Shown here one piece after another: positions 1 through 1,969 of a stretch of DNA of 64,000 nt. The stretch lies in contig JAJRWB010000047.1 in assembly GCA_024276995.1 (NCBI GenBank), positions 1 to 64,000 on the forward strand, given 5' to 3'. How positions within the stretch are numbered: the stretch's first letter is position 1; each line of letters starts with the position of its first letter. Origin of the DNA: Candidatus Eiseniibacteriota bacterium (lineage in GTDB: Bacteria; Orphanbacterota; Orphanbacteria; Orphanbacterales; Orphanbacteraceae). The translations under genes and the position numbers were made by a program. The notes under the pieces were generated by a model. The model made no database searches. It saw only the letters and a list, made by a program, of their open reading frames with translations, and was not told the origin of the DNA.

Positions 1-1969
1 CGGCGGCCGCCCCTTCGGCCATGGCGACGCGCTCCGCCTTCGCTCCATTCGCCTCCGCCACCACGGCCGCCGCCTTTCCACTCGCCCCCTTGACGACTCC
101 TTCCGCATAGACATTCGCCTCATGAATCATCCTCGCCCGATCCTCCTGGGACGAGGCGACGTCCCTGAAGTCGAAGTGCACCTCCGACGGGCTGTGAACA
201 TTGTGAAGCTGGACTCCCTTCACCTCCAGACCGGTGCGATGGGAAAGGAGGAGGCGATTCACCCTTTTCACCACGGCGTTTTCCACCTCCGTCCTATCGT
301 GGGTGAACACATCGTCGAGGCGCCGCCCGGCGAACTCCCTGAGCAGCGCCCATAAAAGGGTGTTACGCACGGTACTCTCCCCTTTTTCCAGGCCGAGGAC
401 GTATCGTCTCGCGTCGGTCACCGTGTAGCTCGCCGTGGCGAGAATGCTCACAAGGTTCTCGTCGCCCGTGAGGTAGAGCGATTCCTCGGGGAGCCTCTCG
501 ATCGTCTCCTCTTCGACGACGCTTTTCTCATCGGCGAAAGCGAGCGGGTCCATCACGGGCACGCCGTCGCGAAAACCGATATCGAGCCGGACGACCCCTT
601 CCACGGAACAGGTGATCGAATGACCGACCGGCTTCGGCCAGTTCCAGTGGAGCCCCGGGGCGCGCCCTGCGGCGGTCACTCTGCCGAATACCCGCTCGAT
701 CCCTTCCTCGCCGGGCCGGACGGTGTAGAAGCCGCTCGCGAAATAGAGCACGAGGAACGCGGCGACGGCGAAGCGGCCGGTGCCGGTGGCGACGAGCATC
801 GACGGGCGAAACGAGCGCAACGGTGCGAACGCGGCCGCCAGGTTTTCGCGCAGCTCCGCGAATCCCCGCTTCAGCCCGGTCCTGCGAAGACTTTTGTACG
901 AAAGGTAAAGGAAAAGGAGAAGCCCGATCCCCTTGATCGTCTCGAAAAGGAACCCGGCCGACCCCTCTCCACCGGCGGTCGCCGCCGTCGCCGTCCAGGA
1001 GTAGAACGTGTTGAGGAGCAGCCCCACCGCCACCGCCACACCGATGATCGAGGCGAGGTAGATCTGTAGAAACCGTTTTCCGAATGTTCTTCCCACCACC
1101 GAGAGGGTGGCCGCGTTCGTCGCCGGACCGGTGAGGAGGAAAACGAGCGCCGCCCCAGGGTTCAACCCCTTGATCAGCAGCGCGAGAGCCACCGGCGTGC
1201 TGCTCGACGCGCACATGTACAGGGGAATGCCGACCAGGATCACGACGACCATCGAAAAGAGCCCCGTGCCGATGGTGTCCGCCAGGAAGCGGTCGGGAAG
1301 AACCGCCGAGAGGAACCCGGTGAGCACGATGCCGAAAAGTAACCAGAACGCGAGTTCGTCGAACAGGCGTACGAAACCGAAGCGGGCCGCATCGGTGATC
1401 CGCTCGACGTGGGACCGTCCTTCGCCGGACGACGCGGAATCGCCGGGAAGATCGGCGGCGCAGCAATCGTCTCCGGCGCATTCCCCCCCCGGCCTATCGT
1501 CTCCTCCCTTCCCCGGCGCGGTCGATTCCGCCCCTTCGCCCTCCGACCCACCGAAGAGGAGATGGGCCGCCCCGGCGACGAGTGCGGTGATCACCGCCGC
1601 GATCGGGCGGACCACCGCGAAGACCGGGCCGAGCAGTCCCCAAGTGATGGCGATCGAGTCGATCCCTGTTTCCGGCGTGGAGATCAGGAACGAAAGAGTC
1701 GCTTCGCGGCTCGCTCCTTTCTTCCGCAGCCCCACGGCCGTCGGCACGACGCCGCACGAGCAGAGCGGAAGAGGGGCTCCGATCAGCGCGGCGTTGATCA
1801 CCGCCTTCAGATCGCGGCCTCCGATGAACCGCACCAACCTGTCCGTGCGGAGGTAGACCTGGAGGATTCCGGCGATGAAGAATCCGAGGAGAACGAAAAT
1901 ACCGCTCTCATAAAGAATGCTCACCGTCTCCCGGAGAAAGCGTCCGAGAAACGTGACGAAAAGACTCAT
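1..1969 (-). CDS. Permease (SO_0444-type Cu/Zn efflux family) fused to HflK-like SPFH protein, 3' end outside window
   Basis: I translated the minus strand from the ATG at 1969 to base 2 and found one open frame of 656 codons that leaves the window. Residues 1-350 are a multi-pass permease of the DUF318/SO_0444 type: APLPLCSCGVVP (Cys70, Cys72), a second PLYMCASSSTPVA motif near residue 253, and between the two membrane halves a cytoplasmic loop with Cys164, Cys169 and Cys170 (ECAGDDCCAAD) that could bind metal. Residues 400-415 form a membrane anchor, followed by RPGEEGIERVFGR at 418 and an SPFH domain of the HflK type, ending in the Ala/Glu-rich helix typical of SPFH proteins. HflK normally pairs with HflC to modulate FtsH, and permease and HflK are normally separate proteins. 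The joint is in frame, with no start or stop between the parts. Function of the whole is inferred: metal export coupled to membrane quality control. Confidence 0.85.
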   Translation of the reverse strand, partial: MSLFVTFLGRFLRETVSILYESGIFVLLGFFIAGILQVYLRTDRLVRFIGGRDLKAVINAALIGAPLPLCSCGVVPTAVGLRKKGASREATLSFLISTPETGIDSIAITWGLLGPVFAVVRPIAAVITALVAGAAHLLFGGSEGEGAESTAPGKGGDDRPGGECAGDDCCAADLPGDSASSGEGRSHVERITDAARFGFVRLFDELAFWLLFGIVLTGFLSAVLPDRFLADTIGTGLFSMVVVILVGIPLYMCASSSTPVALALLIKGLNPGAALVFLLTGPATNAATLSVVGRTFGKRFLQIYLASIIGVAVAVGLLLNTFYSWTATAATAGGEGSAGFLFETIKGIGLLLFLYLSYKSLRRTGLKRGFAELRENLAAAFAPLRSFRPSMLVATGTGRFAVAAFLVLYFASGFYTVRPGEEGIERVFGRVTAAGRAPGLHWNWPKPVGHSITCSVEGVVRLDIGFRDGVPVMDPLAFADEKSVVEEETIERLPEESLYLTGDENLVSILATASYTVTDARRYVLGLEKGESTVRNTLLWALLREFAGRRLDDVFTHDRTEVENAVVKRVNRLLLSHRTGLEVKGVQLHNVHSPSEVHFDFRDVASSQEDRARMIHEANVYAEGVVKGASGKAAAVVAEANGAKAERVAMAEGAAA

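Follow-up and report, generated by a model that had tools for sequence, protein, structure and literature searches.

SPFH proteins are commonly viewed as microdomain scaffolds, and what bacterial SPFH scaffolds, HflK/C-type rings among them, hold as cargo is a standing question. In E. coli, HflK and HflC form a complex that modulates the protease FtsH (PDB 7vhp, 7wi3). Shewanella requires the permease SO_0444 when stressed by Zn or Cu (PMC3219624), and in Pseudomonas aeruginosa the genes PA2439-PA2435 are up-regulated upon zinc depletion (PMC4542158; PMC11761036), with Zur binding the promoter of PA2439, the first gene of that locus (PMC8531726). Here we describe a gene in which a permease of the SO_0444 type and an HflK-type SPFH domain form one chain, so that the gene itself would encode the cargo. 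It lies at the very beginning of a 64,000-nucleotide stretch of Candidatus Eiseniibacteriota DNA (contig JAJRWB010000047.1, positions 1 to 64,000, hereafter the window) and it opens a three-gene SPFH cassette that recurs outside the phylum of the window, in part with an unrelated transporter in the same slot.

A permease and an HflK-type domain in one chain

On the minus strand a single open frame of 656 codons runs without a stop from the ATG at 1969 to base 2. Base 1 of the window is the end of its contig (C28), which truncates the gene, but the first 141 bases of another contig of the same genome (C46) are identical to those at this contig end, and the joined frame encodes 726 amino acids. 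The uninterrupted permease/HflK frame that the initial annotation had read is thus borne out, with Pfam and NCBIfam domains in both halves, and the fusion is real. The domain search that it proposed matched ArsP_1 (residues 11-320, E 1.6e-43) and Band_7 (residues 416-615, E 1.9e-07, above cut-off) in the same chain, and the hflC gene expected just past the window edge is found on C46, directly downstream of the fusion (TIGR01932, 189.5 bits, cut-off 134.4); next come another hflK and the gene of a ZIP transporter (Table 1).

The permease half matches the NCBIfam model of SO_0444 Cu/Zn efflux proteins (NF033936) over residues 16-356 with 371.1 bits, above the curated cut-off of 300, and four relatives score 325-366. 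The CSCG motif and the Cys-rich loop noted earlier are both present: CSC is invariant across all permease fusions aligned, and the loop between the permease halves, with Cys at 164, 169 and 170, is Cys- and/or His-rich in many relatives. Cu/Zn tolerance is known for the Shewanella SO_0444 alone, and the fused permease would presumably act on the same metals. The HflK domain is related to E. coli HflK and, as in HflK, Band_7 follows the anchor helix and the N-terminus is predicted to be cytosolic, a topology read from hydropathy and charge. Since a basic loop (8-11 K/R vs 2-7 D/E) precedes the last helix in both types of fusion described here, the SPFH part should face the periplasm.

The fusion is found in 5 of the 7 genomes available for the window's phylum, with no stop at the joint and 52-62% identity to the window protein; the two genomes that lack it belong to one other genus. 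A stop and restart near residue 390, which would have pointed to an artefact, is absent from every fused relative. Between two relatives (G005 and G001) the ratio of non-synonymous to synonymous substitution rates (dN/dS) is 0.087 for the permease, 0.059 for the stretch across the joint and 0.098 for the SPFH half, which indicates that the joint is under purifying selection; the ratios for the window gene against G004 (0.14-0.22) are rough, as synonymous change is near saturation. The unfused permeases inspected stand alone, with no SPFH gene in the flanks read. TGA codons beside some matches were not taken for selenocysteine; in G001 and G005 those matches extend beyond the end of the open reading frame.

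Table 1. Features of the fusion gene (window coordinates) and of the genes that follow it on contig C46
Feature	Coordinates	Strand	Remark
Permease-HflK fusion gene, first 656 of 726 codons	2..1969	(-)	last 70 codons on contig C46
SO_0444-type Cu/Zn efflux permease domain, residues 11-356	902..1939	(-)	ArsP_1 + NF033936
CSCG motif, residues 70-73	1751..1762	(-)	
Cys cluster ECAGDDCC, residues 163-170 less the last A	1460..1480	(-)	acidic loop between permease halves
Basic linker, residues 357-391, predicted cytosolic	797..901	(-)	8 K/R vs 2 D/E; conserved between relatives
HflK-type single transmembrane anchor, residues 392-410	740..796	(-)	hydropathy
SPFH/HflK domain, residues 414-655, predicted periplasmic as in HflK	5..730	(-)	
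hflC	C46:350-1243		
Second hflK	C46:1240-2160		
ZIP transporter gene	C46:2174-2905		

One cassette with two transporter types

The architecture was sought in a sample of 386 genomes with a distant permease fusion (L055) and a fusion to a CDF cation-efflux domain (L039) as queries, and the open reading frames were then read. The permease-HflK fusion recurs, as the initial annotation had suggested checking, in 15 genomes (G000, G001, G002, G004, G005, G072, G213, G091, G104, G370 with two copies, G101, G239, G123, G260, G320) of seven families (f1, f67, f86, f99, f96, f118, f232), and G343 holds a partial one besides. Another 14 genomes (G030, G177, G081, G223, G352, G225, G251, G270, G292, G216, G345, G277, G140, G041), from ten families (f25, f76, f189, f202, f210, f149, f70, f215, f135, f36), carry a CDF-HflK fusion. 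All genomes not in f1 are outside the window's phylum. The order [transporter-HflK]-HflC-HflK is kept in every CDF-type locus and in 16 of 17 permease-type loci whose gene order was read, the window's included; the exception is one of the two G370 copies (L082), where HflC and the second HflK were not found in the stretch read.

The CDF domain was recognised by Pfam in three fusions and by a home-made profile in the remainder; each has at least one HxxxD motif and most have both. As Pfam matched the membrane domain only in the CDF fusions that it was run on, the usual cytosolic C-terminal domain of these transporters appears to be replaced by the linker and HflK. Two further candidates picked by the length of their open frames, L038 (G031) and L097 (G220), have no transporter domain and were rejected. 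A contig scan with the single protein gave no matches, while aligned HflK parts, used as the query, picked out four named records: JALGYY010000009.1, JABDJQ010000354.1 (titled Gemmatimonadetes), JAJCZU010000003.1 (titled Candidatus Eisenbacteria) and JALGZO010000435.1. The cassette is also found on a plasmid of Aquibium oceanicum. The CDF-HflK protein WP_072608301.1 of this species, encoded on a conjugative plasmid (L056:9001-10548), is labelled only FtsH protease activity modulator HflK, a name that hides its transporter half, and because public annotation calls such proteins hflK the class is easily missed. Literature searches, with most subscription papers and preprints outside their scope, returned no description of permease or cation-efflux fusions to HflK.

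Some of the cassettes have metal-linked genes around them. A ZIP gene lies 3' of most f1 copies, completing a conserved four-gene operon, and also 3' of the cassette in f67, f118 has an ArsR-type regulator and a ZIP gene upstream, and in Aquibium a heavy-metal P-type ATPase and PCu(A)C copper chaperones are near the cassette. Proteobacterial plasmids, from Klebsiella aerogenes and Paraburkholderia sprentiae, bear a version in which a long HflK (568 and 606 aa, respectively) is followed by HflC, HflK2 and then a P-type ATPase, and the latter cassette adjoins a metal ABC transporter; in the tree these versions (L120, L121) group with the cassette lineage. Before its HflK anchor, each long HflK (L120:6109-7815, L121:5975-7795) has an N-terminal region in which some five helices are predicted and Pfam finds no match; this region may have diverged from a transporter. 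The fusion in f86 and f99 is immediately preceded by an additional HflC-like gene and by a gene resembling acetamidase/formamidase (PF03069, called in L081 and L084) (L081:6636-7766, L083:8582-9613, L084:3961-4992).

A separate SPFH lineage and its possible role

Trees of the SPFH part, built in two runs, separate cassette HflK from canonical HflK and cassette HflC from canonical HflC, both splits with an ultrafast bootstrap (UFBoot) of 100, so that the fused HflK falls outside the canonical hflK lineage. The permease-fused HflK domains except that of f232 form one clade (UFBoot 100 and 94 in two trees) near the CDF-fused ones, and the f232 domain groups with the CDF copy of Aquibium (84 and 92). 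This pattern fits an exchange of transporters on a shared scaffold; the deeper nodes are weak (17-61) and therefore do not fix the direction and number of exchanges. Within the permease group the trees of HflK1 and HflK2 are congruent, a sign that the cassette is inherited as a unit.

We think it reasonably probable that the cassette encodes a dedicated heteromeric SPFH ring of HflK/HflC type that carries metal exporters as covalent parts. The product of the fusion would be an inner-membrane Cu/Zn-type exporter forming part of an HflK-like subunit, which most likely assembles with the HflC-like protein and the second HflK-like protein of the same operon. The permease would sit in the membrane at or within the ring, the basic cytosolic linker would connect it with the anchor helix of HflK, and above the exporter outlet the SPFH domains would form a periplasmic dome. 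Such a ring would gather several exporters at one place in the membrane and keep them stable there, next to the ZIP transporter of the operon, and thereby couple export and uptake of divalent metal. That a ring holds the exporters we infer from HflK/C biology and the constant SPFH trio, and the presence of two unrelated transporter families in the same slot, with CSC and HxxxD kept, points to metal transport. We also speculate, with less conviction than for the ring itself and as an unlikely extension of it, that HflK/HflC-type cages have evolved into metal-export vaults, in which exporters would be covalent wall parts of a dome that confines or hands on the metal, the dome being a general chassis on which lineages swap CDF, SO_0444 permease or a separate P-type ATPase.

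Several points weigh against this reading. The fused proteins are known from sequence alone, an AlphaFold model from five sequences was too poor for use (predicted local distance difference test, pLDDT, of 43), and the TIGR01933 hflK model matches residues 414-655 with 116.4 bits, under the equivalog cut-off of 159.4, the C-terminus being missing in the window; among complete relatives G001 alone passes it (165.6). The P. aeruginosa locus is placed in the cassette lineage by gene order only and is induced at Zn scarcity, which suits uptake rather than export. In the accessible text of a study of PA14, deletion of paFlo5-7 (PA2439-PA2437) gave slight phenotypes only in the assays reported, and no metal test is seen there (PMC13086221).

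Among the alternatives, the fused HflK might be a metal-responsive adaptor that recruits FtsH to the exporter (or to ZIP), so that transporter turnover tracks metal status. FtsH is a zinc protease, canonical HflK and HflC associate with it (PMC12048511), and the kinship of the fused domain to E. coli HflK fits such a role. However, there is no ftsH in or near the cassette operon, the single full FtsH of the window's genome is on C71, a separate housekeeping hflK-hflC pair is on C27, and the cassette SPFH proteins are a distinct lineage; we therefore hold the adaptor to be rather unlikely. The initial annotation had seen in this chain a link of metal export to a membrane quality-control scaffold: the single exporter/HflK-type chain stands, through domain models, conservation, selection and recurrence, whereas the FtsH part finds no support, given the housekeeping genes and the lineage split. 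An FtsH role of the fusion is possible, but nothing in these data points to FtsH. Three more Band_7 proteins are encoded in the window's genome (G000) beyond the cassette and canonical hflKC (C22:133295-133834, C24:74901-75419, C53:21136-21705).

The fusion might also serve co-expression or tethering only, fixing the ratio of exporter to scaffold with the SPFH part as a general raft-type anchor and no cage. The common view of SPFH proteins as scaffolds favours this, as does the fact that fusion often marks co-regulated proteins; yet a trio as constant as HflK1-HflC-HflK2 speaks for a hetero-oligomer of defined make-up and not for a generic anchor, and we find the proposal quite improbable. A neutral fusion or assembly artefact, which the truncation at the contig end might have suggested, we judge already refuted and its chance negligible, because the same unbroken fusion is present in separate assemblies of several families, including the single-contig G101 and G239, the joint is under purifying selection and the contig end at base 1 overlaps C46 by 141 bases. 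The recurrence of this operon kind in many unrelated bacteria, with one or the other of two unrelated metal transporters, suggests that the task of some HflK/HflC-like rings is to hold such transporters and not to control FtsH, and two transporter types in one three-SPFH operon make a metal-transport ring directly testable.

Comparison with described systems

With the SO_0444 family (NF033936; PF03773) the window protein shares a full-length match above cut-off, CSCG and the Cys/His-rich central loop, but it continues in the same chain into the HflK anchor and the SPFH domain. The CDF-HflK fusions (Cation_efflux, PF01545), e.g. WP_072608301.1 of Aquibium oceanicum, have the same slot and operon order, even though their transporter belongs to an unrelated family and their annotation is merely hflK. 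The first HflK of L120 and L121 has, in place of a recognised transporter, an N-terminal membrane region unmatched by Pfam. PA2439-PA2438-PA2437 (PaFlo5-7) and HmtA of P. aeruginosa, compared by gene order and literature and not by sequence, likewise combine three SPFH genes with a metal P-type ATPase in the order of L120 and L121, but there the ATPase is a separate protein. Finally, the HflK/HflC complex of E. coli has in common with the window protein one anchor helix, a predicted periplasmic SPFH domain, a long helix and an adjoining hflC. It differs in as much as the N-terminal half of the fusion is a multi-spanning exporter, and the cassette has two HflK types per HflC, belongs to a separate lineage and has no ftsH nearby.
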